Assembly: GCF_019375475.1 (NCBI RefSeq)
Contig: NZ_JAHXGQ010000016.1
Span: 1 to 64,000 of the forward strand
From: Saccharothrix obliqua
Lineage (GTDB): Bacteria > Actinomycetota > Actinomycetes > Mycobacteriales > Pseudonocardiaceae
DNA length: 64,000 bases
Direction of reading: 5' to 3'
Each line of letters begins with the position of its first letter. Within the stretch, counting starts at the first letter, position 1. Positions 1,735 through 34,220 of the stretch are shown here, in pieces. The notes under the pieces were generated by a model. It searched no databases and was not told the origin of the DNA. It saw only the letters and a list, made by a program, of their open reading frames with translations. The position numbers were made by a program, and so were the translations under genes.

Positions 1735-1765
1735 TTGACAATACTTAAGAAAGATATAGCGTTAT
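1735..1765 (+). promoter_or_regulatory. Promoter region with TTGACA and ATATAGCG box
   Basis: TTGACA at 1735-1740 is followed by an AT-rich stretch and ATATAGCG at 1754-1761, which on the other strand reads CGCTATAT, the same core as the inverted repeat at 20289-20324. It lies about 90 bp before the TTG start at 1855 and is the likely promoter of that gene. Confidence 0.6.
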
Positions 1766-1854
1766 GGGAGGTAGCTGAGTTTGACCGCCTCGCGTGCCCC
1801 CGGGGCAGCGCGCCACTCGCGGTCCCAACTCGACAGACGCTGGAGGTGTCTGGA

Positions 1855-3057
1855 TTGAGTCTTTCCAAGGAGACCTACGAGTCCCTGAACCTGGAGCCCA
1901 AGCCGATCCGTCCGCACATCCTCGCCGCCGCCACGGTGGTCTTCGGCGACGACTACTACGCGGGACGGCGGGAGACCATCAACCTCTCCGGCTTCGTGCA
2001 GCTCAACAAGTGGCCGATGCCCGGCTTCGAGCACACGGTGGACGAGAAGGGCTACGCGTCCTTCGAGACCGAGCTGATCAGCGCACCCGAGGTCGGCATC
2101 AAGGGCTTCAGCTACGAACTGGACGACCGGCTCCAGGTGCTGTCCAACCCGTTCCTGCCCAACTCGGGCCACGTCCGGCAGATCGTGCCGGGCAAGAACT
2201 TCCCGGCGGAGTTCTACATCCGCCGGTTCGGCATCCTGGAGAGCAGCACGTTGCGGCTGGCGCACCGCAACGTCATCGACATCCACGGCGTCGTGGACAG
2301 CGTGCCGCCGTTCAAGAAGCCGCTGACCGGCCCGTACCTGGGCAACCCGCGTGGTGACGGCCCGTTCGAGGTCGTGCAGGCGCCGAACGTCGTGCGCGGC
2401 ACCACGCTGCCCGAGGCGTGGTACCCGGCCAACGACGAGAACGAGCCGATCGGCATCACGCCCGAGGTGTTCTTCGCCCCGAGCGCGGGCCCGTGCATGT
2501 CGATGCTGGTGGACCCGTCGCTCATCATGCAGGTGACCCTGGAGGGGCAGCTGGAGCTGGAGGTCGGCGGCAAGACCGTGCGGGTGGACCTCGCGGGTGA
2601 CTACCGCAAGGCCGCGGGCGCGGAAGTCCTGCTGTTCGGCCCGGAGAAGCACAGCGACGGACCGGGTGTGCTGGCGCAGCTCTCGCGGGTCGCCGTCAGC
2701 GGCCACTGCGCCGAGCTGGGCGGCCGGGTCATGCTGCGCGCGTCGTGGCCGCGCGTGTCGGGCGGCACGCTGGGCGAGGGCACCGAGGACAGCCTGAGCC
2801 GCGTGAGCTTCCCGAGCGACCTGCACATCGACACCAACTTCGAGCTGTGCACGCCGCAGGGCACCCTCTACGCCGACAACTCCGTCCACGTGGCGGGCAA
2901 GCTGCGCGACGTCGAGGCGACCGGCACCGAACTGCGCATGGACGGCGCGGACGCACCGCTGGTGACCACGGGCAACGAGGTGCGGGCGCGCCTGACCGGC
3001 GTGTCGCTGGCCATGCGCGACGCGCACGTGGGCGAGACGGCCGCGGTCAACATCTGA
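1855..3057 (+). CDS. Conserved hypothetical protein of natural-product clusters (possibly DUF6073)
   Basis: A 400-residue soluble protein without signal peptide, membrane segment or recognisable catalytic motif. It contains segments such as SGFVQLNKWPMPGFEHTVDE and a C-terminal half rich in beta strands. I recall similar actinobacterial proteins under the label DUF6073, but I could not verify this. I chose the TTG at 1855 because GGAGG lies eight bases upstream (1842-1846); the in-frame GTG at 1846 has no such site. The gene stands alone behind its own promoter and is followed by a palindromic island and a strong hairpin. Its role is unknown. Confidence 0.65.
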   Translation: MSLSKETYESLNLEPKPIRPHILAAATVVFGDDYYAGRRETINLSGFVQLNKWPMPGFEHTVDEKGYASFETELISAPEVGIKGFSYELDDRLQVLSNPFLPNSGHVRQIVPGKNFPAEFYIRRFGILESSTLRLAHRNVIDIHGVVDSVPPFKKPLTGPYLGNPRGDGPFEVVQAPNVVRGTTLPEAWYPANDENEPIGITPEVFFAPSAGPCMSMLVDPSLIMQVTLEGQLELEVGGKTVRVDLAGDYRKAAGAEVLLFGPEKHSDGPGVLAQLSRVAVSGHCAELGGRVMLRASWPRVSGGTLGEGTEDSLSRVSFPSDLHIDTNFELCTPQGTLYADNSVHVAGKLRDVEATGTELRMDGADAPLVTTGNEVRARLTGVSLAMRDAHVGETAAVNI

Positions 3058-3080
3058 CGCCGGTCCGCCCGGTTGCGGTC

Positions 3081-3107
3081 TTGGTTTAAAACCAAATAGC
3101 ATTATTC
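3081..3107 (+). promoter_or_regulatory. AT-rich island with palindrome TTGGTTT-A-AAACCAA
   Basis: The arms TTGGTTT (3081-3087) and AAACCAA (3089-3095) form a perfect seven-base palindrome around one A. It is followed directly by AATAGC (3095-3100; GCTATT on the other strand), the box seen at other promoters in this cluster. It is the likely promoter/operator of the gene at 3173. Confidence 0.55.
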
Positions 3108-3135: not shown

Positions 3136-3172
3136 CCACCGCGCACCCGGTCGAGAAGAGGGAGGCCGCCGC

Positions 3173-4729: not shown

Positions 4730-6034
4730 ATGCCCGACCGCGCCACCCCGTCACGCCTCGCGCTGGCCCTGCGTGCCGCGCGGGTGGCCGCCGTGCTGCT
4801 GGTCGTGCTCGCGCCCGCCCTCGTCGGCGGGTTGGTCAGGGGCGCGTTCTCCGGTCGGGAAGCCGCGCTGCGCCACCTGTGCCGGCGTGCCACGACCCTG
4901 CTGATCCGCCTCGGCCCGACGTTCGTCAAGGCCGGGCAGGTGCTCGGCACCCGCCGCGACGTGCTGCCGCCCGTGTTGTGCGACGAGCTGGCCGTGCTCC
5001 AGGACGACGTGCCGCCGATGGACCACGCCGAGACCGCGCGGGCGCTCGTCGAGGCGTTCGGCGACGACCTGGACGGCCTGTTCCGGGAGGTGGACCGGAC
5101 ACCGGTGGCGAGCGGCAGCGTGGCGTGCGTCTACCGCGCCCGGTTGCGGACCGGGCGGCGGGCGGCGTTGAAGCTGCGGCGGCCCGGCGTGGAGCGCGTG
5201 ATGACGCTGGACCTGGTGCTGATGCGGCGGGGCGCGGCGCTCGTGGCGAAGCTGCCGGTGTTCCGGGGCGTGCCGGTGGTCGAGGTCGTGGCGCACGTGA
5301 CCGGCGCGGTGTTCGACCAGCTCGACTTCGAGCGCGAGGCGGCGGCGCTGCGGCGGTTGCGGCGCAACCTCGCCGCCGTGCCGCGGGTGTGGGTGCCGGA
5401 GGTGTACGGCGAGGCGACCCGACCGCGCTGCATCGTCATGGAGTTCATCGGCGGCCTGGAGACCGGCGCCGCCGACCGGTGCTCGCCCGCCACCCGCCGG
5501 CGGTTCGCCGCGTCCGGGCTCGCCGCGATCTACCACATGCTGTTCGTGGACGGGTTCGTGCACTGCGACATGCACCCCGGCAACCTGTACTTCACCAGCT
5601 CGGCGCACGTGGTGGTGCTGGACGCGGGGTTCAGCGTGCAGCTCTCGGACGAGCTGCGCCGCCTGTTCGCGGAGTTCTTCATGAGCATGGCCACCGGGCG
5701 GGGCGACCGGGCCGCCGAGATCGTGGTGGAGAGCGCCACCGGGCTCTCGCCGGACGCCGACGTGGCGGGCTTCCTGCCGCGGATGGCGGAGCTGGTGGTG
5801 CGCAGCCACGGCCGGTCCGCCGAGGAGTTCAGCCTCGTCTCGTTCGCCGCGGAGATGTTCGACCTCCAGCGCGGCCACGGCGTGCACGCCGCGCCCGAGC
5901 TGATCTTCCCGTTGCTGTCGCTACTGGTCATCGAAGGAACCATCCGGGACCTCGACCCCGGCGCGGACTTCCAGGAGGCGGCGAAGCCCGTGCTGGTCAA
6001 GGGCCTGTTCGGGGCCCGCCCGGCGGGTCGCTGA
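4730..6034 (+). CDS. ABC1/AarF/UbiB-type atypical kinase
   Basis: A 434-residue protein with an N-terminal hydrophobic helix (about 15-40) and the hallmarks of the UbiB/ADCK family: GPTFVKAGQVLGTRRD (the KxGQ motif), an ATP-binding lysine region ALKLRRPGV, catalytic-loop FVHCDMHPGNLYF and the metal-binding segment VVLDAGFSVQL (DAG where DFG is usual). The family is linked to isoprenoid quinone biosynthesis and small-molecule or lipid phosphorylation rather than classical protein kinase activity. ATG 4730 follows GGGGGAG and lies 16 bp after the propeller gene, so it is probably in the same operon. A UbiB homologue inside a secondary-metabolism region is unusual; it may assist membrane-bound chemistry. 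Confidence 0.8.
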   Translation: MPDRATPSRLALALRAARVAAVLLVVLAPALVGGLVRGAFSGREAALRHLCRRATTLLIRLGPTFVKAGQVLGTRRDVLPPVLCDELAVLQDDVPPMDHAETARALVEAFGDDLDGLFREVDRTPVASGSVACVYRARLRTGRRAALKLRRPGVERVMTLDLVLMRRGAALVAKLPVFRGVPVVEVVAHVTGAVFDQLDFEREAAALRRLRRNLAAVPRVWVPEVYGEATRPRCIVMEFIGGLETGAADRCSPATRRRFAASGLAAIYHMLFVDGFVHCDMHPGNLYFTSSAHVVVLDAGFSVQLSDELRRLFAEFFMSMATGRGDRAAEIVVESATGLSPDADVAGFLPRMAELVVRSHGRSAEEFSLVSFAAEMFDLQRGHGVHAAPELIFPLLSLLVIEGTIRDLDPGADFQEAAKPVLVKGLFGARPAGR

Positions 6035-6099: not shown

Positions 6100-6801
6100 A
6101 TGTCGACCAAGCGTACCTACCAGCAGTATTGCGGCCTCGCGTCGGGACTCGACGTCGTGGGCGAGCGGTGGACGTTGCTGATCGTGCGCGAGCTGCTGAT
6201 GGGCCCGGCCCGTTACAGCGACATCCTGGCGAACCTGCCCGGTCTGGGCACGAACCTGCTGGCGGAGCGGCTGAAGTTCCTCGTGGAGCGCGGCGTGGTG
6301 GAGCAGGTCGACGTCCGCGGCACCGGCGCGCAGCTGGCGTACGCGTTGACGCCGGTCGGCGAGCAGCTGCGCCCGGTGGTCCTGGGCCTCGCCCGGTGGG
6401 GCATGGAGTTCGTCGGCGACCTGCGCCCGGAGGACGCCGTCCGCCCGCACTGGGGTTTCCTGGCGGTGGAGGCGATGCTCGACCCGGCGAAGGTGTCCGA
6501 TGTGGACGAGCGGTACGAGTTCCGGGTGGACGACCAGGTGTTCCACATCGACGTGTCCGGCGGGCGGGCCCGCGCGGTGAAGGGCCCGGTCGAGGACCCC
6601 GCGATGGTGGCGAAGACCGACGCCGCCACGTTCGTGCAGATCGGCGCCGGCCGCCTGACGCCGCTGCTGGCCATGGTGACCGGCAGGCTGGCGCTGGAAG
6701 GCGACATGGACGCCGTGGTCCGGTGCTGCGAGGTGCTGGGGCTGGAGACCGGGATGGCGGCCCGGTCGCCGAAGCGGTCGACGCCCGTCGAGGCGGTCTG
6801 A
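6100..6801 (+). CDS. HxlR-type winged-helix regulator with SCP2-like C-terminal domain
   Basis: A 233-residue protein. Residues about 8-105 form an HxlR winged helix (GERWTLLIVRELLMGPARYS, then LGTNLLAERLKFLVERGVVE). The C-terminal 120 residues resemble the SCP2 sterol-carrier fold (FRVDDQVFHIDVSGG to PLLAMVTGRLALEGD), likely a ligand-binding part. The protein is very similar in layout and sequence to the regulator at 12948, so the two are paralogues. Start ATG 6100 with AAAGGGGCGGG upstream. It probably represses or activates cluster genes in response to a hydrophobic ligand; this is inference. Confidence 0.8.
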   Translation: MSTKRTYQQYCGLASGLDVVGERWTLLIVRELLMGPARYSDILANLPGLGTNLLAERLKFLVERGVVEQVDVRGTGAQLAYALTPVGEQLRPVVLGLARWGMEFVGDLRPEDAVRPHWGFLAVEAMLDPAKVSDVDERYEFRVDDQVFHIDVSGGRARAVKGPVEDPAMVAKTDAATFVQIGAGRLTPLLAMVTGRLALEGDMDAVVRCCEVLGLETGMAARSPKRSTPVEAV

Positions 6802-7941: not shown

Positions 7942-7975
7942 TCGTGCTACGGTTTACTTGAAAAAAGAATCGTAA
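7942..7975 (+). promoter_or_regulatory. Promoter island of the 7998-15099 operon
   Basis: GCTAC (7946-7950), TTTACTTG (7953-7960) and an A-rich run to 7969 form a sharp AT-rich island about 30 bp before the first gene of a seven-gene operon. GCTAC matches the box seen at other promoters of the region; TTTACTTG resembles the arm of the palindrome at 705. Confidence 0.55.
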
Positions 7976-7997: not shown

Positions 7998-8774
7998 GTG
8001 GGGCGTGCGCGCGGTACCGCCGCGGACTTCGTCGCCGTGGCCCGGTCGTACGTGGACGCCCACCCCGACCTGTCGTCCGGGTCGGTGGACGAGGTGCCGG
8101 GGCTGGAACTCGACCTGGACGAGCGGTTCTGCCTGGAGGTCGCCGACGTGTACGACCGCGCGCCGCGGCTCTACTGGGACGACGAGATCGCCGGTCGCTA
8201 TGCGTTATTCAAGCAGGCCAACCTGGTGCAGTACCAGGCGATCCGCGCGGCTGGCCTGGACGTGCGGCCGTGGGCCGACCGGCGCAACCCGTACCGCGAC
8301 TCCCGCGACCTGGCGCGGCGGGTGCGGGAGTCCGGCGTGCTGCACGTGTTCCTCACCGCCGTCGGCCACGGGCCCGGGGAACCGGTCGGCTTCCACCCGC
8401 TGCGCGAACCCTCCGGGGTGGTGGAGCACGGGGTCGCGCTGACCCACAACGACGTCTTCCGCGTGGTCCACGACGTGTTCGGCCACGTCATGCACGGCCA
8501 CTCCTTCGGCCCGAGCGGCGAGTTCCGGGCGACCCGCACCCACCTGCCGATGTACCCGGTGGAGGTGCACCCGGTGCTGCTCACCGAACAGGTAGGCCAG
8601 GTCTGCTGGTTCTTCTTCGGCCCGCACCTGCGCACCGCGGGCCGCGTGCCGAACCGCGGCGAACCCGGCCACACGCCGCCCGACCGGCGGCCCTACCCGG
8701 AGCAGAAGGTCTTCCCGCTGTCGCCGGACCACGTGGCCCGGTTCACGAGCCTGTTCAAGGAGGGGCACGGATGA
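7998..8774 (+). CDS. Uncharacterised protein with HDxFGH metal-binding-like motif
   Basis: A 258-residue cytoplasmic protein. The central segment LTHNDVFRVVHDVFGHVMHG (about residues 147-166) is followed by FGPSGEFRA and a histidine-bearing helix, which together give a plausible H-x4-H plus E metal site similar in spacing to the non-haem iron site of aromatic amino-acid hydroxylases. A second conserved-looking block is LLTEQVGQVCWFFFGPHL. I recall related phage and bacterial proteins with this HD-FGH pattern but no assigned function. GTG 7998 is preceded by GGGGAGGG. It contains a TTA codon (8205-8207) and overlaps the next gene by ATGA, heading a sugar/sulfur operon. Confidence 0.6.
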   Translation: MGRARGTAADFVAVARSYVDAHPDLSSGSVDEVPGLELDLDERFCLEVADVYDRAPRLYWDDEIAGRYALFKQANLVQYQAIRAAGLDVRPWADRRNPYRDSRDLARRVRESGVLHVFLTAVGHGPGEPVGFHPLREPSGVVEHGVALTHNDVFRVVHDVFGHVMHGHSFGPSGEFRATRTHLPMYPVEVHPVLLTEQVGQVCWFFFGPHLRTAGRVPNRGEPGHTPPDRRPYPEQKVFPLSPDHVARFTSLFKEGHG

Positions 8775-12947: not shown

Positions 12948-13601
12948 GTGGTGTCGTCGAAACGCGACTACGGCCAGTTCTGCGGCCTGGCGGGCGCGCT
13001 GAACGTGATCGGCGAGCGGTGGACGCTGCTGGTCGTCCGCGAGCTGCTGATCGGGCCGGCGCGGTTCACCGAGCTGATCGACGACCTGCCCGGTATCGGG
13101 CCGAACCTGCTCACCGAGCGGCTGCGCGGCCTGGTGGAGCGCGGTGTGGTGACGCAGCAGCCGGTGCCGGGCGACGGCCGCGCGCGGCAGTACGCGCTGA
13201 CCCCGGTGGGGGAGGAGCTGGCCGGGCCGGTGCTGGCCCTGGCCCGCTGGGGCCTGCGGTTCCTGGACGAGGAGGACTCGACCGGCGCGACCCGCGCGAA
13301 GTGGGGTTTCCTCGCCGTGCAGGCGATGGTGCGCGAGGACCGCGTGCCGGACGTGGACGAGGTCTACGAGTTCCGGGTGGCGGGGCAGGTGTTCACCATC
13401 GCCGTGACGGCGGGCGCGGTGGCGTTCGGGCGTGGACCGCGGACCGCGCCGGACCTGGCGGTGGAGTGCGACGCGGACACCTTCGTGCGGATCGGCGCGC
13501 GGATGCTCTCGCCGCTGCGGGCGATCGCGACCGGCGCGGTGAAGATCAGCGGCTCGCCCGCCGCCGCCGAGCGCTGCACGCGGATGCTCGGGCTGACCTG
13601 A
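12948..13601 (+). CDS. HxlR-type winged-helix regulator with SCP2-like domain (paralogue of 6100)
   Basis: A 217-residue regulator. The winged helix (GERWTLLVVRELLIGPARFT, IGPNLLTERLRGLVERGVVT) and the C-terminal SCP2-like part (FRVAGQVFTIAVTAG to PLRAIATGAVKISGSP) match the gene at 6100 closely. Tandem GTGs at 12948 and 12951 are both possible starts behind GGGAGCGAGG. It sits inside the seven-gene operon, so it is probably autoregulated. Confidence 0.8.
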   Translation: MVSSKRDYGQFCGLAGALNVIGERWTLLVVRELLIGPARFTELIDDLPGIGPNLLTERLRGLVERGVVTQQPVPGDGRARQYALTPVGEELAGPVLALARWGLRFLDEEDSTGATRAKWGFLAVQAMVREDRVPDVDEVYEFRVAGQVFTIAVTAGAVAFGRGPRTAPDLAVECDADTFVRIGARMLSPLRAIATGAVKISGSPAAAERCTRMLGLT

Positions 13602-13623: not shown

Positions 13624-15099
13624 GTGACGCGCCGGGGCGCGGGGGTGGCCGCCGGTGAGCGCGCCGCGCCCGTGCGGCTGGCGCGTTCCGCGCTCACGCC
13701 ACGCGCGTCGGCCGGTCCCGACGCCGACCGGTGGTTCGCCGAACGCGCCGCCGGTGTCGAGTTCGCGGTCCGGGACGTGCCGCTGGACGGCCTGCCCGGC
13801 TGGCGCACCGACCCGGGGACCGGCGACCTGACGCACCGCAGCGGTCGCTTCTTCGCCGTGCGCGGCATCGACGTGCACCTGCCCGGCCACGAGGTGCCGC
13901 GCTGGGACCAGCCGATCATCCACCAGCCCGAGGTGGGCGTGCTGGGCATCCTGGTCCGCGAGTTCGGCGGCGTGCCGCACCTGCTGATGCAGGCGAAGGT
14001 GGAGCCGGGCAACGTCAACGGCGTCCAGCTCTCGCCGACCGTGCAGGCCACCCGCAGCAACTACACCGGCGTGCACCGGGGCCGCGCGGTGCCCTACCTC
14101 AGCCATTTCCTGGACGTGCCGGAGGACCGGGTCCTGGTGGACGTGCGGCACTCCGAGCAGGGCGCCTGGTTCTACCGCAAGCGCAACCGGAACGTCGTGG
14201 TGGAGGTCGCCGAGGACCTGGAGGTGCTGGACGGCTTCCGCTGGCACACGCTCGGCGAGGTGCACCGGGCGCTCGCCCGGGACGACGTGGTCAACATGGA
14301 CGCCCGCACCGTGCTGGCGTGCCTGCCGTTCGCGGGCGGCGGCGCGGCGGCGCTGCTGGGCGCCGGTCCGGGCGACGGGTTCCGGGCGGCGCTGGCGCGC
14401 TCGTGCGACCCGGCCGCGGGCAGCACGCACACCACCGGCGAGCTGCTGCGCTGGATCAGCGAGATCCGCACCCGCGTCGACCTGCGCACCGCGACCGCGC
14501 CGCTGGCCGGCCTGGCGGACTGGCGGCGGACCCCGGACCGGATCTCGCACCGCACCGGCGCGTTCTTCGACGTGGTGGGCGTGTCGGTGCACGCGCCGGA
14601 CCGCGAGGTGGCGAGCTGGTCGCAGCCCATGGTGCGGCCGTGCGGCGTCGGCCTGGTGGCGTTCCTGGCGACTTCGATCGGCGGGGTGCTGCACGTCCTG
14701 GTGCACGCGCGCGCGGAGGCGGGCTGCGTGGACGTGGTGGAACTCGCGCCGACCGTGCAGTGCACCCCGGACAACTACCGCCACCTGCCCGCGCGTGCCC
14801 GGCCACGCCACCTGGACGCGGTGCTGGGCGCACCGCCGGAGCAGGTGCGGCTCGCGGTCACGCAGTCCGAGGAGGGCGGCCGGTTCTTCCACGCGCGGAC
14901 CCGGCACGTGGTGGTGGAGGTGGACTCGCCGGACGACGCCGAGACGCCGGGCTACCGCTGGGTGGCCCTGCACCAGCTGGTGGACCTGCTCCGGCACAGC
15001 CACTACGTGAACATCCAGGCGCGGAGCCTGGTGGCGTGCCTGTACGGGGTGGCGGCCGGTGGGGCGCGAGGCGTTCAGTCGGACATCGCGTCGAGGTAG
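13624..15099 (+). CDS. NDP-4-keto-6-deoxyhexose 2,3-dehydratase (TylX3/SpnO family)
   Basis: A 491-residue protein made of two homologous halves (about 40-235 and 255-480), each with a QP-motif, a PTVQ(A/C)T segment (LSPTVQATRSNY; LAPTVQCTPDNY) and an R-x-V-VVEV strand (NVVVEV; HVVVEV). This internal duplication is typical of sugar 2,3-dehydratases that start C-2 deoxygenation of NDP-4-keto-6-deoxyglucose. The product needs a 3-ketoreductase, not present in the window. It is the last gene of the operon, 22 bp after the HxlR gene, and its end overlaps the convergent ArsR gene by 25 bp. Confidence 0.92.
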   Translation: MTRRGAGVAAGERAAPVRLARSALTPRASAGPDADRWFAERAAGVEFAVRDVPLDGLPGWRTDPGTGDLTHRSGRFFAVRGIDVHLPGHEVPRWDQPIIHQPEVGVLGILVREFGGVPHLLMQAKVEPGNVNGVQLSPTVQATRSNYTGVHRGRAVPYLSHFLDVPEDRVLVDVRHSEQGAWFYRKRNRNVVVEVAEDLEVLDGFRWHTLGEVHRALARDDVVNMDARTVLACLPFAGGGAAALLGAGPGDGFRAALARSCDPAAGSTHTTGELLRWISEIRTRVDLRTATAPLAGLADWRRTPDRISHRTGAFFDVVGVSVHAPDREVASWSQPMVRPCGVGLVAFLATSIGGVLHVLVHARAEAGCVDVVELAPTVQCTPDNYRHLPARARPRHLDAVLGAPPEQVRLAVTQSEEGGRFFHARTRHVVVEVDSPDDAETPGYRWVALHQLVDLLRHSHYVNIQARSLVACLYGVAAGGARGVQSDIASR

Positions 15100-15383
15100 C
15101 GCTCCAGGTCGTCCAACCGGCTGGACCACAACCTGCGGTAGGGCTCCAGCCAGCGGTCGAGTTCCATCAGCGGTTCCGGGCACAGCTCGTAGACGCGGCG
15201 CTGGGCCTCCTTGCGCGCGCGGACGATACCGGCGTCGCGCAGCACCTTCAGGTGCTTGGAGGTACCGGGCTGCGAGATGCCCAGTTGCTCGACCAGCTCT
15301 CCGACCGGTCGGGGCCGTTCGAGCAGAAGCTCGACGATGCGCCGACGGGCCGGATCGGCCAGTACGGCGAACACGGCGGCCAT
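15075..15383 (-). CDS. ArsR-type winged-helix repressor
   Basis: A 102-residue protein with a single winged helix: VLADPARRRIVELLLERPRP, then LGISQPGTSKHLKVLRDAG as recognition helix, and a C-terminal YELCPEPLMELDRWLEPYRRLW dimer helix. It lacks the metal-binding Cys motif, so it is of the metal-independent ArsR subgroup. ATG 15383 is the best start. Its promoter region, shared with the divergent gene at 15535, holds an inverted repeat ACTTGC-N14-GCAAGT. Confidence 0.85.
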   Translation of the reverse strand: MAAVFAVLADPARRRIVELLLERPRPVGELVEQLGISQPGTSKHLKVLRDAGIVRARKEAQRRVYELCPEPLMELDRWLEPYRRLWSSRLDDLERYLDAMSD

Positions 15384-15485: not shown

Positions 15486-15512
15486 ATCGCTACTCTTTTT
15501 TAAAGTGTTCGC
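15486..15512 (+). promoter_or_regulatory. AT-rich promoter island with CGCTAC box
   Basis: CGCTAC (15488-15493) is followed by a T/A-rich run to about 15505, ending roughly 30 bp before the ATG at 15535. It matches the box found at most promoters of the cluster. Confidence 0.5.
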
Positions 15513-20250: not shown

Positions 20251-20324
20251 TCCACTATGCAAATAGAAACTCGTTGCGGACTATCTCCCGCTATATGACA
20301 GAGCGACTTCACTATCATATAGCG
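20251..20324. promoter_or_regulatory. Divergent promoter with perfect 10-bp inverted repeat CGCTATATGA/TCATATAGCG
   Basis: CGCTATATGA (20289-20298) and TCATATAGCG (20315-20324) form a perfect inverted repeat with a 16-bp spacer, between divergent genes starting at 20209 and 20416. CACTATGC and AAATAG lie further left (20253-20265). The symmetry marks it as the best-formed operator candidate of the cluster. Confidence 0.75.
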
Positions 20325-20415
20325 CCTGGCGGGTGCGCTCCACTACAGTCGGCCGTACGGGGCGGCCCGGCTCCGCGCTCTGCTCGACACGCGGCTGGAG
20401 GAGGTCGACAAGAGG

Positions 20416-22137
20416 ATGTCCAGCACTCCCCGCTTCGGCGGGACCTTGCGACTCGTGGGCCCCGGCGGGGTCGACCACATCGACACGGCGAGCGCCTACT
20501 ACGCCACGTCCGCGCAGATCCTGCGCGCGCTCACCCGGCAGCTGTTCGCCTACCCGGCGTCCGCCGACCTGTCCGACCCGGCGGCGGCGTTCACGCCGGC
20601 CCCGGACCTGGCCGCCGAGGTCCCGACCGCGGAGAACGGCGGCATCAGCGCCGACCGGCGCACCTACACGATCCGCCTGCGCGACGGCGTGCGGTGGAAC
20701 TCCACGCCGCCACGCGAGGTGACCGCGCAGGACGTGGTCCGCGGGCTCAAGCGCCTGCCGAACCCGGTGTCCGGCGCGGGCGCGCTGCACTACTTCACCA
20801 GCACCATCGTCGGGTTCCGCGAGTTCTGCGACGCCTACCGCGCCGCGTTCGAAGGACGTGCCGCGACCCCGGCGGCGATGGCGGAGTTCCAGGACTCGCA
20901 CGACATCGCGGGCCTCACCGCGGTCGACGACAAGACGCTGGTGTTCCGGCTCCTCCAGCCCGCCAACGACTTCCTGAACATCCTGGCCACCGGGTTCACC
21001 ACGCCCGCGCCCGCCGAGTACGACGCGCACGTCCCGGACAGCCCGGAGTTCCGCCGCAACACCCTCTCCTGCGGGCCCTACCGGCTCGCCGAGCACGCCG
21101 ACGACGGGTCGCGGCTCCTGCTGGAGCGCAACCCCGAGTGGCGCGCGGACACGGACCCGATCCGCAACCAGTACGTGGCGCGGATCGCCATCACCGTCGG
21201 CCGGGAGCCGGTGGCCGTGACGCAGCGGAAGATGGACGCCGGCGAGATCGACCTCGCCTGGTCCTACACGGCGGTGTCGTGGGCGCGACCCAAGGCGGGG
21301 CAGGACGCCGCGCCACGCAGCTACCCGGGTTTCGCGCTCAACCCGTACCTGGTCTTCAACCTCCGCAGCCCCAACCAACGCGGTGCGGTCGGCAAGATCG
21401 GGGTGCGCAAGGCGATCGCGCACGCGGTCGACAAGGTCGCCATCGGCGAGATCCTGGACGACCTGGACGCGCCGAACACGCCGCTGCGCTCGGTCATCCC
21501 GGTGGGCAGCATCGGGCACCGGGACTTCAACCCCTACCCGACGCCGGACGACCGGGGCGACCCGGCGAAGGCGCGGGCCTTCCTGGAAGAGGCGGGTTAC
21601 GGCGACGGCCTGTCGCTGATCGCGGCGGTGCGCGACATCGGCATCCACCTGAAGGTCATGGAATCCGTCGCCGCCGACCTGGCCGCGATCGGCATCGGGC
21701 TGGAGTGGCGCAAGTTCACCCAGGCCGAGTATTACGGCTCGGCGTTGTCCGACCCGGAGGCCGGGCGGCGCGGCGACTGGGACATCGCGGAGCCCGGCTT
21801 CACCCCGGACTGGTTCGGCAACAACGGCCGCGTCATCGTGCAACCGCTGTTCCAGACCAACGACGCGCCGGGCACGACCAACTACGGCGGCTACAGCAGC
21901 CCCGTGGTGGACGCGTTGATCGAGCAGGCGCTCCAGGAGCCCGAGCCCGCCAAGGCCGAGGAGCTGTGGCACCAGGTCGACGTCGAGGTGATGAAGGACC
22001 TGCCGATCGTGCCGATCCTGAACTTCGCCGCGATGACGTCGCGGTACCACGGCAAGCGCGTGCGCAACGCGGTGCACGTGCCGCAGATCGAGTTCTTCGA
22101 CATGACGAACCTCTGGCTCGACCCGCCCGAGGACTGA
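20416..22137 (+). CDS. Family 5 solute-binding-protein-like protein lacking an export signal
   Basis: A 573-residue protein that matches DppA/OppA-type family 5 binding proteins along its length: IRLRDGVRWNSTPPREVTAQD (motif of lobe I), FNLRSPNQRGAVGKIGVRKAIAHAVDK, RGDPAKARAFLEEAGY and NYGGYSSPVVDALIEQAL. It begins MSSTPRFGGTLRLVGPGG with no signal peptide, lipobox or membrane helix, and no permease or ATPase of the Opp type is nearby. ATG 20416 follows GGAGGAGG by 11 bases. A paralogue at 34947 also lacks a signal. Both may work in the cytoplasm, as binding, carrier or catalytic proteins of the pathway (inference). Confidence 0.85.
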   Translation: MSSTPRFGGTLRLVGPGGVDHIDTASAYYATSAQILRALTRQLFAYPASADLSDPAAAFTPAPDLAAEVPTAENGGISADRRTYTIRLRDGVRWNSTPPREVTAQDVVRGLKRLPNPVSGAGALHYFTSTIVGFREFCDAYRAAFEGRAATPAAMAEFQDSHDIAGLTAVDDKTLVFRLLQPANDFLNILATGFTTPAPAEYDAHVPDSPEFRRNTLSCGPYRLAEHADDGSRLLLERNPEWRADTDPIRNQYVARIAITVGREPVAVTQRKMDAGEIDLAWSYTAVSWARPKAGQDAAPRSYPGFALNPYLVFNLRSPNQRGAVGKIGVRKAIAHAVDKVAIGEILDDLDAPNTPLRSVIPVGSIGHRDFNPYPTPDDRGDPAKARAFLEEAGYGDGLSLIAAVRDIGIHLKVMESVAADLAAIGIGLEWRKFTQAEYYGSALSDPEAGRRGDWDIAEPGFTPDWFGNNGRVIVQPLFQTNDAPGTTNYGGYSSPVVDALIEQALQEPEPAKAEELWHQVDVEVMKDLPIVPILNFAAMTSRYHGKRVRNAVHVPQIEFFDMTNLWLDPPED

Positions 22138-22184: not shown

Positions 22185-23324
22185 TCAGCGGACCAACTCC
22201 TCCAGGCGGTGCACGAGGTCGGCCGGGCTGGGCAGCGTCGCCATCTCCTCCCGCACGGCCTTGGTGTTGGCGCGCAGCGACTCGTCCTCCAGCATCCGGT
22301 TGACGGTCGCGGCGTCGATGGCGTCCTCGTCGACCACGATCCCGACGCCGCCCTCCCGCACCGCCGGTGCGAGCGTCTCGTTCCCGGGGTAGAGCGGGTG
22401 CACGCCGACGACCTGCGGGATGCCCGCCTCGATAGCCGCCATCGTCGTGGTGCCGCCACCGTGGTGCACCACGCCGTCGCACGTGCGGAACAACGCCTCC
22501 AACGACGTCCACCCGACCGACCGGACGTTCGCCGGCAGGTCGCCGAGCGGGGTCAGGTCGGTCTCGCCCAGCGCCAGCACGAGTTCGGCGTCCAGCGCCG
22601 ACGCGGAGGCGAGCAGGCCCTTGAGCGGGCCGAAGCCGTCGGTGCCGGGTCGGTCGGTGCCGAGGGTGACGGCGACGCGGGGCCGGTCGCCGCGCTCGGG
22701 CAGGCGGTCGCCGATCACCGTGCCGCCGGTGAACACCACGTCGCGCACGAACTCGCCCTCCGGCCGCTCGAACGGGAACATGCTCGGCGGCACGGCCTCC
22801 AGCACGAGCGCGGGATCGGCGAGCGCGGGCACGCCGTACCGCTCGAACACGTCCGGCAGCAGGGCGGCGATGGCCCGGTGCAGGCCGCCGGTGCGCACGA
22901 TGCCCAGGTTGCGCTGCACGGCGGGCACGCCCAGCCGGCTCGCCACGATCAACCCGTACGCGGCGGTCTGCTCGTACACCACGACGTCGGGTCGCCACTG
23001 CTCGGCCAGCGCGAACGCGCGCTCGAAGAACGGCCGGTTCAGCTCGGCCGGCATCAACGCGAACCGGGACGGGTCGTCGCCCAGCGTCTCGTTCCACCAC
23101 ATGCGGGCGAACTCCGGGTTGTCCGCCAGCGTCCGGTCGAAGATCGCCATCCCGTCGAAGCCGGGCGCGACGTCGACGATGGGCAGGCCGGACGCGACGG
23201 CCTGGTCGGTGTGCTCGGCGAACGCCACCAGCACCTCGTGGCCGGCGGCGCGCATCGCCCACGCCAGCGGGACCATGGGGAACAAGTGGCTCACGCCGTC
23301 GGTCGAGCAGAACAGTGCGCGCAT
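22185..23324 (-). CDS. Macrolide-type glycosyltransferase (GT1, DesVII/EryCIII-like)
   Basis: A 379-residue GT-B enzyme: N-terminal LFCSTDGVSHLFPMVPLAWAMRAAGH, and C-terminal donor-binding region VRSVGWTSLEALFRTCDGVV followed by HHGGGTTTMAAIEAGIPQV, the GT1 signature. ATG 23324 is the start, since AGGAGG stands just upstream. Enzymes of this type attach NDP-deoxysugars to polyketide or other aglycones. It is divergent from the 4-aminotransferase gene and shares its promoter island, which links it to the amino sugar. No adjacent P450-like auxiliary protein is seen. Confidence 0.9.
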   Translation of the reverse strand: MRALFCSTDGVSHLFPMVPLAWAMRAAGHEVLVAFAEHTDQAVASGLPIVDVAPGFDGMAIFDRTLADNPEFARMWWNETLGDDPSRFALMPAELNRPFFERAFALAEQWRPDVVVYEQTAAYGLIVASRLGVPAVQRNLGIVRTGGLHRAIAALLPDVFERYGVPALADPALVLEAVPPSMFPFERPEGEFVRDVVFTGGTVIGDRLPERGDRPRVAVTLGTDRPGTDGFGPLKGLLASASALDAELVLALGETDLTPLGDLPANVRSVGWTSLEALFRTCDGVVHHGGGTTTMAAIEAGIPQVVGVHPLYPGNETLAPAVREGGVGIVVDEDAIDAATVNRMLEDESLRANTKAVREEMATLPSPADLVHRLEELVR

Positions 23325-23349
23325 GGGTTCAAGCCTCCTGTCGGGGCCG

Positions 23350-23386
23350 GACATGGCTACTATCTGTTATTCAAGCATAGGGGAGG
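23350..23386. promoter_or_regulatory. Divergent promoter island between glycosyltransferase and aminotransferase
   Basis: GCTAC (23356-23360), then TATCTGTTATTCAAG and CATAG form a compact AT-rich island in the 69-bp gap between two divergent starts. The ribosome site GGGGAGG (23380-23386) of the right-hand gene follows directly. Confidence 0.55.
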
Positions 23387-23393
23387 TGGATCG

Positions 23394-24542
23394 GTGATCA
23401 ACGTCTTCCAGCCGTCCCTGGGCGAGGAGGAGCTGGCCGCCGTCCGCGAGGTCTTCGCCGGCAACTGGATCGGCAGGGGACCGCGGGTGGCCGCGTTCGA
23501 AACCGCGTTCGCCGACCACCTCGGCGTCGGCCGTGAGCACGTGACGTCGATGAACTCCTGCACCGAGGCCACCTTCACCGCGTTGCGCCTGGCGGGCGTC
23601 GGGCCGGGCGACGACGTGGTGCTGCCCAGCGTGAGCTTCGTCGGCGCGGCCAACGCCGTCGCCGCGCACGGCGCGCGCCCGGTCTTCTGCGACGTGGACC
23701 CGCGCACGCTCAACCCGGCCGTGGCGGACGTCGCCCGCGCCGCCACCCCCGCCACGCGGGCGGTCGTGGTGCTGCACTACGGCGGCTACCCCGGTGAGGT
23801 CGCCGGCATCGCGCGGTGGTGCGCCGACCGGGGCATCCCGCTGGTGGAGGACGCCGCCAACGCGCCGGCCTCCACCGTGGACGGTCGCGCGTGCGGCCTG
23901 TTCGGTGATTTCGGCGTGTGGAGCTTCGACCACGGCAAGATCGCCACCGCGGTCGACGGCGGCATGTTCTACGCGCGCGACCCGGAACTCGTGCGCCGCG
24001 CGCGCAAGCTCGCCTACCTGGGGCTGGAGGAGGTCAGCGGGCACGAGCGCGCCGCGCGGGCCGCCGACCGGTGGTGGGAGGTCGAGGTGACGTCGTTCTC
24101 CCGGCGCTCCGTGCTCAACGACGTGCTGGCGGCGATCGGGGCGGTGCAGCTCCGGCGGTTGCCGGAGTTCCTGGCCCGGCGGGCGGAGGTGGTGGACCGC
24201 TACGACGCGGCCCTCGCGGGCGTGCCGGGCGTGGTGACGCCGCCCGCGCTGCCGCCGGGTCACCGGACCTCGTACTACTTCTACTGGGTGCAGTTCGACT
24301 CGGGCGTGCGTGATGCCGTGGCCGCCGACCTGTACCGGGCGGGTGTCTACACGACCTTCCGCTACCCGCCGTTGCACCGCGTGCCCCGGTACGGGTCCGC
24401 CGCCGTGCTGCCGGGCGCGGAACGGGCGGCGGAGCACACGCTGAACCTGCCGTTGCACCAGGGTTTGTCCGACGAGGACGTGGACCGGGTGGTCCGCGAG
24501 CTGCGGGCCGCGCTGGAGCGGCACGTCGACCCGATGGGGTGA
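23394..24542 (+). CDS. NDP-4-keto-2,3,6-trideoxyhexose 4-aminotransferase (SpnR-like, DegT family)
   Basis: A 382-residue DegT/DnrJ/EryC1/StrS aminotransferase. The start [20 protein letters not shown], the block [20 protein letters not shown] and the lysine motif [18 protein letters not shown] (Lys about 182) match what I remember of SpnR, which aminates C-4 in TDP-forosamine synthesis. The YFYWVQF and [12 protein letters not shown] blocks near the end also fit. GTG 23394 follows GGGGAGG. With the 2,3-dehydratase, 3-dehydratase and N-methyltransferases of this window it completes a 4-amino-2,3,4,6-tetradeoxyhexose set apart from the early steps and 3-ketoreduction. Confidence 0.88.
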
Positions 24543-24555
24543 CCGGGGCCCGTAT

Positions 24556-24600
24556 GTGCCTTGATGGCTACATAACCAGTGCGGTATGTTCGGGCCGTGA
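24556..24600 (+). promoter_or_regulatory. Promoter island of the transporter operon (GCTACATAA)
   Basis: GGCTACATAA (24566-24575) and GGTATGTTC further on lie 35-70 bp before the ATPase start. The GCTAC core matches the cluster box. Confidence 0.5.
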
Positions 24601-24634
24601 TCGAGCCATCCCGGACAGTGGGGAGGTGGGCGTC

Positions 24635-25612
24635 GTGACGGCGGTCGAACCGGCTATCGAGGCTTCCGGCCTGGTCAAGGTGTTCGGGGAGACGCGGGCC
24701 GTCGACGGCGTCGACCTGGTCGTGCCCACCGGTGGCGTGTACGGCTTCCTCGGTCCCAACGGGGCGGGGAAGACGACCACCGTGCGGATGCTCGCCACGC
24801 TGCTGCACCCGGACGGTGGCAGCGCGCGCGTCCTGGGTCGCGACGTGGTCCGGGAGGCCGACGACATCCGCGCCCGGATGAGCCTCACCGGCCAGTACGC
24901 GTCGGTCGACGAGCAGCTCACCGGTGGCGAGAACCTGGTGCTGCTGGGCAGGTTGCTCGGTTTCACCAAGGCGGTGGCGGCCGAGCGCGGCGAGGAGCTG
25001 CTCGCGGTGTTCGACCTGGCCGACGCCGCGGGCAGGCAGGTCAAGACCTATTCCGGCGGTATGCGCCGCCGGCTGGACATCGCGGCGAGCCTCATCGTCA
25101 CACCCGAGCTGGTGTTCCTGGACGAGCCGACCACGGGCCTGGACCCGCGCTCGCGCAACCAGGTCTGGGACGTCATCCGGTCGCTGGTCGACGTGGGCAC
25201 GACGGTCCTGCTCACCACCCAGTACCTGGAGGAGGCGGACCGCCTCGCCGACCGGGTCGCGGTGATCGACCGGGGTCGGATCGTCGCCGAGGGCACGCCG
25301 GGCGAGCTGAAGGCGTCGGTGGGTGCGGGCGCGGTGCACGTCCGGCTGGTGGAGGCGGACCGCCGACCGGAGGCCGAACGCATCCTCGCCCGCGTCATCG
25401 GCGGCCAGGTGCGGCTCGCGCCGGAGCCGGACGCGTTGTCCGTGCCCGCCTCCGACCCGGAGCGGGTCGGCGCGGCGCTCGTGGAGCTGAGCCGCGCGGG
25501 CGTCGCGGTCAGCGGCTACCGGCTCGCCGAGCCCAGCCTGGACGAGGTGTTCCTCGCGCTCACCGGGCACGCGGCGGACGTCGACGAGAAGGCCGAGGAG
25601 GACGCGGCATGA
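24635..25612 (+). CDS. ABC transporter ATP-binding protein, DrrA-like exporter
   Basis: A 325-residue ATPase with Walker [11 protein letters not shown], signature [15 protein letters not shown], Walker [14 protein letters not shown] and the switch-region [15 protein letters not shown] typical of the DrrA drug-export group, plus a C-terminal regulatory extension. GTG 24635 has GGGGAGG eight bases upstream; an earlier in-frame GTG at 24626 would sit on that site. It overlaps the permease gene by ATGA. It likely powers export of, and self-resistance to, the cluster product. Confidence 0.92.
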
Positions 25613-26448
25613 CCACACCGGCGACCACCGGCGACGTCGAGCGCCCCGCGAACCGGGTGCTGGGCACGCGTGCCCGCCCGGAGCGGCCCGGTCCGCTCGC
25701 GACGTCCCGGGCCTTCGCGTGGCGGGCGCTGCTCAAGATCAAGCACGACCCGGACCAGCTGTACTCCTCGTTCATCCTGCCGATCATGTTCACCCTGGTC
25801 TTCACCTACCTGTTCGGCGGCGCGCTGGCCGGGTCGACCGGCGACTACCTCCAGTTCCTGATGCCGGGCATCCTGGTGATGACCGTGATCATGATCAACA
25901 TGTACACGGGGATCTCGCTGAACACCGACATCACCAAGGGCATCTTCGACCGGTTCCGCGGCCTGTCCATCTGGCGGCCCGGCATCCTCGCGGGCGCGCT
26001 GCTCGGCGACGCGCTGCGTTACGCCATCGCCCTGGTCGTGGTGACCGCACTCGGCCTGCTGCTCGGCTTCCGGCCCGGCGGCGGCGTGCTCGGCGTGCTG
26101 GGCGCGTTCCTGTACCTCCAGCTGTTCGCGTTCTGCCTGGGCTGGCTGTGGAACGCGGCGGGCCTGGTGCTCAAGTCGCCCGAGTCGGTCAACCAGCTCA
26201 GCTCGGTGGTGTTGTTCCCGCTGGTGTTCGCGAGCAACATCTTCGTCGTGCCGGACACCATGCCGGGCTGGCTGCGGGTGGTCGTCGGCGTCAACCCGAT
26301 CACGCACGCGGTGACCGCCGTCCGCGGGCTCACCGCCGGCACCCTGACCGGTGACCAGCTGCTGTGGGCGCTGGTCGCGTGCGCGGCGCTGCTGGTCGTC
26401 TTCGCGCCGCTGGCGATGTACCTGTTCCGGGCGAAGAGCCTGCGGTGA
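25609..26448 (+). CDS. ABC-2 type permease, DrrB-like
   Basis: A 279-residue integral membrane protein with six predicted helices between residues about 55 and 275 and the DrrB-type line [20 protein letters not shown]. The N-terminal 40 residues are polar and cytoplasmic. It overlaps the ATPase upstream (ATGA) and the lyase gene downstream (GTGA at 26445-26448), so all three form one translationally coupled operon. Together with the ATPase it forms a two-component efflux pump. Confidence 0.9.
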
Positions 26449-28603: not shown

Positions 28604-28927
28604 ACCGCCTCCTTCGCCGCCGCCACGAGTTCCGGGCCGCGCGGCGAGGCCCGAACCGGATGCCTGGCACGGGGGCGCGCCGACCTCGACGTCGGGGGCA
28701 CGGCGGACACCGCCACCTGCCCGACCGCTTCGGCCCCGGTCCGGCACCGTCGGCTCGCCACGGGGACGTGCCCGCCGAGGCGCGGGGCACCGCCGCGCGC
28801 GGAGCCGCGTGTCGGGGAGGGCGGTCCACGGCTCCGGTCATCCATCCGCCTGACGTCGACCTGCGCGGCACACTCGAAAAGTAGCTATATTTTATGTTAG
28901 CAGATGCCGATGATCCGGGGAGTGTCG
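28604..28927. other. Intergenic spacer between divergent dehydratase and methyltransferase genes
   Basis: About 270 bp of very GC-rich sequence next to the dehydratase start carries no credible gene. The right-hand 50 bp hold the AT-rich promoter island listed separately. The length is unusual compared with the 40-200 bp divergent gaps elsewhere in this cluster. Confidence 0.5.
28878..28903. promoter_or_regulatory. Promoter island GCTATAT-N6-TTAGC
   Basis: GCTATAT (28884-28890) and TTAGC (28897-28901) form a partial inverted repeat in an otherwise GC-rich spacer, about 25-45 bp before the methyltransferase start. GCTATAT is the core of the 10-bp repeat at 20289. Confidence 0.6.
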
Positions 28928-30533: not shown

Positions 30534-30558
30534 TCGACTATAGGGTTTTACAGCAAAG
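30534..30558. promoter_or_regulatory. Divergent promoter island GACTATAGGGTTTTAC
   Basis: The stretch GACTATAG (30536-30543) with GTTTTAC following is the only AT-rich part of the 82-bp gap between the N-methyltransferase and glycosyltransferase starts. CTATA matches the cluster box, with A instead of G at its first position. Confidence 0.5.
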
Positions 30559-32005: not shown

Positions 32006-32055
32006 AGCACGCTATATGCTGTTGTTGGTATATGCGTGCCCTGGTATGTTCTGAT
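32006..32055 (+). promoter_or_regulatory. Promoter island CGCTATATG of the SRPBCC gene
   Basis: CGCTATATG (32010-32018) shares nine bases with the arm of the inverted repeat at 20289. TATATGCG (32030-32037) follows. The island lies about 70-100 bp before the start at 32109. Confidence 0.6.
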
Positions 32056-32108: not shown

Positions 32109-32972
32109 GTGAAGGACATCGCGCTGCTGACCGTGGACGGCCGGTCCCAACTGCGCATCGAACGCCGTCTGGCGCACCCGCCGGAGAAGGTGTGGAGCGC
32201 GCTCACCGAGCCCTCGCACATCAGCAAGTGGTACCCCTTCCCGGTCGCCGAGCTGGAGCTGAAGGAGGGCGGCAAGGTCAGCTTCGACGCCGGCGACGGC
32301 TCGACGTTCGAGGGCGTCATCACCGAGGTCGACCCGCCGAAGGTCTTCGCGTTCCGGGAGGAGGAGGACCTGCTGCGCTTCGAGATCACGCCGGTCGACG
32401 GCGGTTCTCGGCTCGTCTTCTCGCACACCTTCGACGACCGCCCGGCGGCGGCCAGCAACGCCTCCGGCTGGACGGACTGCCTGGACGCGCTGGAGCAGGT
32501 CGTGGGCGGCGCGGAGGAGACGGCCGTGGACAGCGACCCGGTCGCCCTGCACGAGCGCCTGGTCAAGGAGTTCGGCCTGGACCAGGGCGAGGTGAAGGCC
32601 GGCGACGACGGCTGGACCGTGCGGTACGAGCGCCAGCTCCGCGAGCCCGCCGACCGGGTGTGGGCGGAGCTGACCGGTGGCGGCGAGGTCGCCGCGAGCG
32701 GCCCGGTGCCGGCCGGGTTCGCGCACCCCGGTCTGTCCACCGGTGACGTGCGGTCGGTCGAAGCGGCCGAGCACGTCGAGTTCGACTGGCTCAGCGACGG
32801 CGTGCCGGCGGGCACGGTGCGCTACGAGTTCCGGCCGGGCAACGGCGGCGCCCGGCTGACCCTGGTGCAGCGGGGCGAGAACGGCTCCGCGGCGTTGCGC
32901 GACTCGGAGCTGCGCGCGTGGCGCGACCACGTGGAGGGCTTGGCGGCGGAGCTGTTGGAGGCGCGCGGCTGA
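32109..32972 (+). CDS. Tandem SRPBCC/AHSA1-like (START-fold) protein
   Basis: A 287-residue protein. Residues 1-140 form an AHSA1-type SRPBCC domain (RIERRLAHPPEKVWSALTEP, ISKWYPFPVAELELKEGG, SRLVFSHTFDDR). Residues 165-285 look like a second, more diverged copy (VRYERQLREPADRVWAELTG to RLTLVQRG). Such domains bind hydrophobic ligands; in natural-product clusters related folds act as cyclases/aromatases, but this subgroup is mostly uncharacterised. GTG 32109, with AAGGAGCAG upstream. It converges on the DUF885 gene with 10 bp between stops. Confidence 0.75.
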   Translation: MKDIALLTVDGRSQLRIERRLAHPPEKVWSALTEPSHISKWYPFPVAELELKEGGKVSFDAGDGSTFEGVITEVDPPKVFAFREEEDLLRFEITPVDGGSRLVFSHTFDDRPAAASNASGWTDCLDALEQVVGGAEETAVDSDPVALHERLVKEFGLDQGEVKAGDDGWTVRYERQLREPADRVWAELTGGGEVAASGPVPAGFAHPGLSTGDVRSVEAAEHVEFDWLSDGVPAGTVRYEFRPGNGGARLTLVQRGENGSAALRDSELRAWRDHVEGLAAELLEARG

Positions 32973-32982
32973 CGGGCCGGGC

Positions 32983-34182
32983 TCACCCCGACGCCGCGAG
33001 GTCCGCCGGGGTCAGCGGCTCGTCCAGCAGCACCCGGTAGCGGTCGGCCGCGGACTGGTCGTCCGGCCGGGCGTCGAGCCACGCCCGCACCCGGCGCGCG
33101 CCTTCGACGTAGGTGGTCGTGTAGGCACGCCACAGGGGATCGGTGAGGAACCGGACCGCGTGACGCGCGCGCTGCTCGTCCACCAGCATCCACCGCCGCA
33201 GGTAGGCGACGACGTCGTCCGGGTCCGCGCCGCGGTCGTGCAGCATGATCGCCGCGTCCTGGCGTGCCGCCATGAGCGGCATCGTCCGGCGCAGCAGGAG
33301 TTCGGACAGCTCGCCGTCCAGCACCAGTCCCAGTTCCGCCAGCACGTCCTGCGTCCACCGTCCCCAGCCGGCGCCGAGCAGGGCGGGCAACGCCGTCTCC
33401 GCGATGCCCTCGGCCATCAGGCACCGGGGTGTGTTCACCAGGGCGATGGCGTGCTCCGCCTCGCCCCGTTCGCGCACCAGCCGGAGTTCCTTGCGGCAGT
33501 GCTCGGCGTGGTGGCCGGGGTACGCCTCGTGCGTGACCAGCAGCGGCAGTGCGGCCATCCGGTGCCGCACCTCGGCGTTGAGCGTGATCGTCGACCGGTA
33601 GCCGCCGTGGTAGCGGTTGAACGCGTTCCACGGCCGGTCGGTGACGGCTTCGTACGCGACCTCCTCGTCCGCCGGCAGGTCGAACAGCTCGTGGGCGCGG
33701 ACGCGCAGCCGGTCGGACACCGCGCGGGCGGCGGGCACGAGCCGCCCGGCGGGCACCCGGTCGTGCTCCTGGAACCGGGTGACGCGGTCCGCCAGCGGCC
33801 CGGGTCCGGGCAGCAGTTCGGCGATCTCGTCGTGGAGTGCCGCGTACTCCTCGACGTCGGTCGGGCGGATCTCCACGCCGAAGTACGCGTGGATCTCGGC
33901 CAGGAACGGCGTCTCCACGCCCGCGAGCCGGTCCCCGACGCAGGCCAGCGCGCCGAGTTGGCCGTCCAGGAACCGCCGACGTCGTGGTGGCAGGCCGCTG
34001 GAGGCGAGATCGGCGCGCAACGCCCGCGCGTGGGCGGCCAGGGCGGCGGGCTCGGCGGGCGGCTCGTCGTCGACCTCGTGGGACAGGTCCGGGTCGCCGA
34101 ACCAGCAGTCCACGAGACCGGGGGCCAGCCGGCCGAGCCGCAGCCCGAGCAGCAGGTACTCCCGCACCACGGGTTCGTCCAC
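32983..34182 (-). CDS. DUF885 family metallohydrolase-like protein
   Basis: A 399-residue protein with the DUF885 hallmark HEAYPGHH at about residues 218-225, which contains an HExxxHH-like zinc-binding pattern, and a downstream acidic MAEGIAETA segment that may supply the third ligand. It has no signal peptide, so it acts in the cytoplasm. The family is related to peptidases, with few members characterised. GTG 34182 has GGGAGGCG upstream. In this cluster it might hydrolyse an amide or peptide intermediate; this is speculation. It shares a 41-bp divergent promoter with the N-methyltransferase at 34224. Confidence 0.75.
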   Translation of the reverse strand: MDEPVVREYLLLGLRLGRLAPGLVDCWFGDPDLSHEVDDEPPAEPAALAAHARALRADLASSGLPPRRRRFLDGQLGALACVGDRLAGVETPFLAEIHAYFGVEIRPTDVEEYAALHDEIAELLPGPGPLADRVTRFQEHDRVPAGRLVPAARAVSDRLRVRAHELFDLPADEEVAYEAVTDRPWNAFNRYHGGYRSTITLNAEVRHRMAALPLLVTHEAYPGHHAEHCRKELRLVRERGEAEHAIALVNTPRCLMAEGIAETALPALLGAGWGRWTQDVLAELGLVLDGELSELLLRRTMPLMAARQDAAIMLHDRGADPDDVVAYLRRWMLVDEQRARHAVRFLTDPLWRAYTTTYVEGARRVRAWLDARPDDQSAADRYRVLLDEPLTPADLAASG

Positions 34183-34195
34183 GACGCCTCCCAGA

Positions 34196-34220
34196 TTTGC
34201 TATTCAATAGTAAAGTAGCC
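34196..34220. promoter_or_regulatory. Compact divergent promoter GCTATT...TAGC
   Basis: GCTATT (34199-34204) and AGTAGC (34214-34219) flank a TCAATAGTAA core, giving a partial inverted repeat that fills most of the 41-bp gap between two divergent starts. The right-hand gene begins five bases after it with no room for a ribosome site. Confidence 0.6.

Follow-up and report, generated by a model that had tools for sequence, protein, structure and literature searches.

A recurrent 18-bp box as the predicted operator of HxlR-SCP2 regulators in a putative enediyne-type gene cluster of Saccharothrix obliqua

Regulators of the HxlR/DUF24 family, such as YodB and HxlR, recognise short ACT/AGT-type inverted repeats. 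In the tiancimycin cluster, according to the available part of the report (PMC9464397), TnmR1 is an HxlR-family protein, and TnmR2 and TnmR3 are AarF/ABC1/UbiB kinases. In electrophoretic mobility shift assays (EMSA), TnmR1 bound the regions tnmB-tnmR3, tnmC-tnmD, tnmR1-tnmJ and tnmT2-tnmS3 and failed to bind tnmI-tnmR1 and tnmM2-tnmN (seven regions were assayed, of which six are named in that part of PMC9464397), and its authors proposed it as a repressor. Here we describe a promoter element in a 64,000-nucleotide stretch of S. obliqua DNA (the window), which starts at base 1 of contig NZ_JAHXGQ010000016.1 (C8). We consider it highly probable that this 18-bp box is the operator of two cluster-encoded relatives of TnmR1, the HxlR-SCP2 proteins encoded at 6100-6801 and/or 12948-13601. 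We favour this reading because the box is nearly confined to these clusters, recurs in relatives, overlaps the -35/-10 region of the DUF6004 gene, co-occurs with the regulator and agrees with the binding of TnmR1.

The box was defined by comparison of DUF6004 loci, of which 43 relatives were found in actinomycete genomes (loci, contigs and genomes are labelled L, C and G). Upstream of the DUF6004 gene they share a conserved element, approximately TTGAC-N-ACTTnAAAAAnATATAGYgT. The core of the box, about RCTW-N9-ATAGY, is an imperfect inverted repeat of 18 bp with an A-rich centre, and near-perfect versions occur in some relatives (e.g. L042 and L060). A 22-bp matrix was trained on the DUF6004 promoter of 42 of the 43 other loci, with the window excluded. 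L062 was left out because its match lacks residues 1-116, the start of the gene; L028 and L037 were dropped from alignment A1 and retained in the matrix. A similar element precedes DUF6004 in the 42 loci used for training, and the box also precedes three DUF6004 genes outside that set (G061, G049 and G052). Among 111 nonredundant boxes, a set picked by the matrix itself, both half-sites (RCT and AGY) were present in 69. That set contains neither training sites nor the window DUF6004 box, but as many as three of its members could be DUF6004 boxes (those of G061, G049 and G052).

The box is real, specific to these clusters and recurrent in relatives. Twelve boxes scoring at least 12 bits were found in the first 35 kb of the window, none between 35 and 64 kb and two in 780 kb of background from the same genome, a density that predicts 0.09 per 35 kb. 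With a threshold of at least 18, the counts were seven, zero and zero. The background comprised 39 pieces and excluded the box-bearing pieces from C4 (20001-40000), C23 and C16. A separate 700-kb sample that included the C4 piece held four boxes of at least 14, three of them on C4. The same specificity was seen around polyketide synthase (PKS) genes. Thirteen regions around DUF6004-type enediyne PKS genes contained 31 boxes of at least 14 in 238 kb (shuffled sequence, 0.4), a count in which one box (in L168) is a training site and one region (L175), on a contig that differs in length from that of its DUF6004 locus, is only putatively linked; without L175 there were 29 in 227 kb. Eight regions around enediyne PKS genes unlinked to DUF6004 contained a single box of at least 14 in 135 kb (shuffled, 0.6). 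The plain core pattern with at most one mismatch matched 11 times in the whole genome, six times in the window cluster, and is weak by itself because a reversed control gave seven matches. A sequence-only covariance model returned a single match in the whole genome (E 0.2), short motifs probably having been dropped at the first pass. A DUF6004 search of a plasmid collection gave no match.

The published binding data could be compared with matrix scores in a Streptomyces relative of the tiancimycin cluster. The HEAT-repeat gene of such clusters was found in two of 392 Streptomyces genomes, one of which was G203; its cluster is syntenic with tnm and its gene order agrees with the tnm units. With the matrix fixed beforehand, we ranked all gaps between genes that measured 50 bp or more and lay beyond 21 kb of the 70.4-kb G203 piece, 24 in number. 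The best were E3/I (21.9), C/D (19.1), R1/J (17.0), B/R3 (14.3) and T2/S3 (12.0), and the rest scored 3.5 or lower. The equivalents of the four TnmR1-bound regions therefore ranked 2-5 of 24, the random chance of all four falling in the top five being 5/10626. The equivalents of the unbound regions scored 1.8 (M2/N) and -10.6 (I/R1). The E3/I gap, which lies before the PKS cassette and is not among the named regions, is predicted to be an extra TnmR1 target. The ranking also bears on the idea that the box belongs to another cluster regulator, such as a TnmR7-like activator of the AraC type. AraC-type genes are present in anthraquinone-fused enediyne (AFE) clusters (available part of PMC9464397), and one on C4 is preceded by a box. 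However, TnmR7 was deduced in the same source to promote the tnmN unit, yet the M2/N gap is boxless, and it is the regions bound by TnmR1 that carry the box. No AraC-type family was detected among the window-cluster proteins scanned. We regard this explanation as quite improbable. A single pathway regulator with the HxlR-SCP2 proteins as candidates, as proposed in the first-pass annotation of the window, is well supported by co-occurrence, by the box counts around linked PKS genes, by the G203 ranking and by the EMSA of PMC9464397, as far as that source was available.

Several points weigh against an HxlR-SCP2 operator. The G203 gene letters were assigned from gene order once the boxes were known, so the ranking was not strictly blind, and tnmR4 was missed by the gene caller in G203. 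In the available part of PMC9464397, TnmR1 binding is described as moderate. Deleting tnmR1 lowered most of the tested genes instead of raising them, so repression is not clean there; the authors blame early cell death. TnmR1 is also said to repress the tnmR7 unit, yet that part of the paper names no bound region for tnmR7. Within the window, one box (8195) sits inside a called gene and the promoter at 24567 is without a box (matrix score -2.0). Linkage of HxlR and DUF6004 was established for 20 of 43 genomes, 15 in the flank and five on a contig equal in length to that of DUF6004. An isolated box at C3:31998 (L117), scoring 14.4, falls outside all loci linked to these clusters and has no known pathway connection. 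Binding in S. obliqua is itself inferred.

At the DUF6004 promoter, TTGAC was present in 33 of 42 loci, in 25 of these at 16-18 bp before a TAG hexamer, and a full TANNNT occupied the place of that hexamer in 26 of the 42. The box lies between -35 and -10, covering the spacer and the -10, and repression is plausible because of this overlap with the -10. We read the box, from sequence comparison, as a predicted operator that overlaps the promoter at one fixed place at DUF6004 and is not itself a promoter. A sigma-70-type arrangement, with fixed -35/-10 spacing and one box orientation, holds at DUF6004 and fails at the other boxes. TTGAC was found near only eight of the 111 nonredundant boxes elsewhere (six on the box strand and two on the other), and boxes face either way relative to the gene, both in the window and in relatives.

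These observations bear on two promoter-based explanations, both raised in the first-pass annotation. In the first, the AT-rich islands hold ordinary promoters of the sigma-70 type, and the box is nothing more than their -10 region, a TANNNT that may be extended. The overlap at DUF6004 with TTGAC (33 of 42) and with TAGNNT-like hexamers (26 of 42) agrees with this, as does TANNNT on one or other strand within 11 of the 14 window boxes, and overlap with -10 elements may be common among boxes. To this extent the suggestion that -10 elements contribute to the signal held. It does not explain the confinement to the cluster: a -10 alone is insufficient because a plain -10 would occur beyond the cluster, whereas the box is rare elsewhere in the genome and no box of at least 12 was found in 60 kb of a second enediyne-type PKS locus with sugar genes (C6:1-60000; L230, L115 and L231). 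With the two orientations and the scarcity of TTGAC elsewhere, this makes a plain -10 very improbable. A dedicated alternative sigma factor would explain why a single element precedes many units of one pathway. However, its promoter would not be expected in both orientations or in inverted-repeat shape, and no sigma-factor family was detected in 32 of 33 window genes up to 36.9 kb or in 20 C16 proteins (part of the C16 genes). We therefore consider a single alternative sigma factor extremely unlikely and retain the operator reading.

The boxes and main genes of the window are as follows (scores in bits; strand in brackets):

701-722 (-): box, 14.0; its centre lies 35 bp upstream of the MDMPI/DinB-like gene at 746; same-gene box in L023 and L024.
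1735-1762 (+): DUF6004 promoter; TTGACA 1735-1740, 16 bp, TAGCGT 1757-1762.
1741-1762 (+): strongest box, 33.2; overlaps the DUF6004 promoter.
1855-3057 (+): DUF6004 protein gene (PF19467), marker of the cluster family.
3081-3102 (+): box, 26.2; before the methyltransferase at 3173; also in L022-L024.
4730-6034 (+): ABC1-type atypical kinase gene (PF03109), family counterpart of TnmR3/TnmR2 (available part of PMC9464397).
6056-6077 (-): weak box, 7.8; between the kinase and HxlR-SCP2 genes; same position in L022 (15) and L023 (26).
6100-6801 (+): HxlR-SCP2 regulator 1, 233 aa (PF01638 and PF02036), proposed reader of the box.
7954-7975 (+): box, 20.8; before the operon starting at 7998.
8195-8216 (-): box, 18.9; within the called gene 7998-8774; similar place in L022, L023, L042 and L047.
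12948-13601 (+): HxlR-SCP2 regulator 2, 217 aa (PF01638); 61% identical to the G203-cluster HxlR protein.
15487-15508 (-): box, 25.3; before 15583.
20252-20273 (-): weak second box, 8.0; 52 bp from the next box, same divergent promoter.
20289-20324 (no strand): perfect inverted repeat CGCTATATGA-N16-TCATATAGCG; right part within box 20304-20325 (14.6).
23357-23378 (-): box, 18.9; divergent promoter 23324(-)/23394(+).
28882-28903 (-): box, 26.8; before the methyltransferase at 28928.
30535-30556 (-): box, 14.0; divergent promoter 30502(-)/30585(+).
32009-32030 (-): box, 14.6; before the AHSA1-domain gene at 32109.
34197-34218 (-): box, 16.2; divergent promoter 34182(-)/34251(+).

By gene calls, 13 of the 14 window boxes of at least 7.5 were intergenic, each with its centre at a distance of 25-104 bp from the closest start codon called. 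For the internal box at 8195-8216, an internal promoter, a roadblock or a wrong start call are candidate readings. The inverted repeat at 20289-20324 occurs once in the 8.04-Mb genome. Paired boxes 52-53 bp apart (about five helical turns) in one promoter region were seen at 20252/20304 and also in the AFE-type clusters of G058, G194 and G180.

Against a window composition of 73.5% G+C, the islands under study are AT-rich, and the first-pass observation that such islands carry a shared box before many transcription units was borne out from 0.7 to 34.2 kb. The motif is also not equally common elsewhere in the genome. The short string then offered as the shared motif, CGCTATATGA, was not enriched, with six occurrences in the window at no more than two mismatches against 7.89 expected from shuffles. 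A common element does exist; it is longer (18 bp) and often on the opposite strand, GCTATAT being the reverse complement of the right end of the DUF6004 promoter element. Eleven of the 14 coordinates listed at that stage were no more than 30 bp away from the midpoint of a box of at least 13.9. Two of them, 20289 and 20315, share the box at 20304-20325, and GCTAC at 7946 is just outside the box at 7954-7975. The site at 6058 was weak (7.8) and that at 24567 was not supported. The supposed good match outside the cluster, at 49460, scored -1.4 and was not supported either. Beyond the window, boxes were found on C16 (three sites of at least 15), C4 (three sites) and C23 (one site). Absent from that list were the boxes at 701-722, 8195-8216 and, weakly, 20252.

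The family scan covered 20 C16 proteins and, of 33 genes called in the window up to 36.9 kb, the 32 other than 15075-15383. The regulator families detected among the window genes were the two HxlR-SCP2 proteins, the first of which directly follows the ABC1-type kinase gene; Crp-like and TetR-like proteins were found far upstream on C16. HxlR-SCP2 homologues were present in 43 of 43 DUF6004 genomes. The G203 regulator was closer to the second window protein, as listed, than to the first (53% identity). The HxlR alignment used rows from the window, C16, C23, G203, G058, G194, G180, Nocardiopsis, G162 and G085. On C23, a box (19.5) lies 19 bp before a further HxlR-family gene, whose product is 35% identical. 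Three 20-kb pieces around Micromonospora-group HxlR genes of 36-37% identity, none with a visible PKS cassette, held one weak box (12) in total. The window HxlR proteins matched the solved structures 5hs7 and 7bzd over about residues 7-106 only. A single-sequence AlphaFold model of HxlR-SCP2 was discarded (mean pLDDT 37.9).

We suggest the following mechanism. An HxlR-SCP2 dimer would bind each box; at DUF6004, and wherever else the occupied box extends over spacer and -10, RNA polymerase would be kept off. Binding may be tuned by the kinase and/or by a lipophilic signal, possibly the cluster product, which is suggested because an ABC1-type kinase gene adjoins and SCP2 is a hydrophobic-ligand domain. 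Both paralogues may act on the same boxes, or each on its own subset. Repression, the roles of kinase and ligand and the choice of acting paralogue are all inferred.

The cluster is assigned to the enediyne type by synteny. In Goodfellowiella (L022), the same genes come after a type I PKS (KS-AT-ACP-KR-DH) and a small thioesterase-like protein, a domain order that is an enediyne hallmark. The S. obliqua counterpart of this PKS (82% identity to that of L022) is near the end of C16. Ahead of it are encoded DUF1702, an FG-GAP protein and a 317-aa protein, neighbours that are likewise enediyne hallmarks. No exact sequence overlap was found between the C16 and C8 ends, and because of this their contiguity rests on synteny with L022, by which the C16 PKS cassette probably adjoins the window. 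A PKS match at E <= 1e-150 was found in 41 of 43 DUF6004 genomes. The window cluster further contains genes for an NDP-hexose 2,3-dehydratase, EryCIII-like glycosyltransferases, DegT-type aminotransferases, methyltransferases and sulfur-amino-acid-type enzymes, as well as transport genes. An aminotransferase-V-type gene (18821-20209), whose product weakly matches the periplasmic enzyme PvdN, stands beside an oligopeptide-binding-type gene (20416-22137); the pair recurs in many relatives and possibly reflects tailoring outside the cytoplasm. On C16, a TldD/PmbA-like pair with an upstream box (23322-26304; L112) has homologues in three Micromonospora-group DUF6004 clusters. A ClpC-like gene, possibly a spare target or a chaperone, lies near DUF6004 in L029, L039 and L052; in the last two it is preceded by a box.

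The C4 boxes belong to a different gene set. Three boxes of 21-27 bits were found at 22.8-29.6 kb of C4, one before an AHSA1-domain gene, one before an AraC-type gene and one in a HEAT-repeat/ABC1-kinase divergent promoter. The surrounding piece (C4:20001-40000; L120) carries an AFE-like set consisting of HEAT, DUF6073, AHSA1-methyltransferase, ABC1 kinase and AraC genes, homologous to the clusters of G203, G058, G194 and G180, which likewise bear boxes. Neither an enediyne-type PKS nor a close HxlR-SCP2 gene was found beside the C4 set. The simplest reading of these sequences is that the C4 boxes would be controlled in trans by the window regulators. The C4 set was rejected as a companion of DUF6004 genomes, its HEAT gene being matched in 0 of 43 in a search without a positive control. 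A wider proposal is that one HxlR-SCP2 pair runs two unlinked loci, the DUF6004-type cluster of C16 and C8 and the C4 set, as one regulon for a split-pathway product, with SCP2 sensing a polyene/enediyne intermediate to time release; we regard this as speculative and rather unlikely.

Many actinomycete genera have enediyne-type clusters that carry the box. As a candidate site, it would allow the target promoters of an HxlR regulator to be sought in sequence and checked by a simple binding assay, and it links separate loci of one genome into one possible regulon.

Compared with known systems, the window is most readily set beside the TnmR1/TnmR3 pair. Both combine an HxlR regulator with an AarF/ABC1/UbiB-type kinase in an enediyne-type cluster, and the regulator acts, in the window by prediction, on several cluster promoters (for tiancimycin, the available part of PMC9464397). 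Unlike that system, the window has two HxlR-SCP2 paralogues in a DUF6004-type cluster, while the tiancimycin-like set is on C4. SgcE1 of the C-1027 cluster is likewise HxlR-family and enediyne-cluster-encoded, the accessible portion of PMC2657911 giving a homology statement only. An operator sequence for an enediyne-cluster HxlR regulator was not found in the open-licence literature searched, including the available part of PMC9464397. The type of regulator is already known, and the candidate operator sequence is without counterpart in the portions of the literature searched. The window proteins belong to the same winged-helix family as YodB and HxlR (HxlR/DUF24). They differ from these in carrying an additional SCP2 domain, and the spacing of the box differs from that of the YodB operator.

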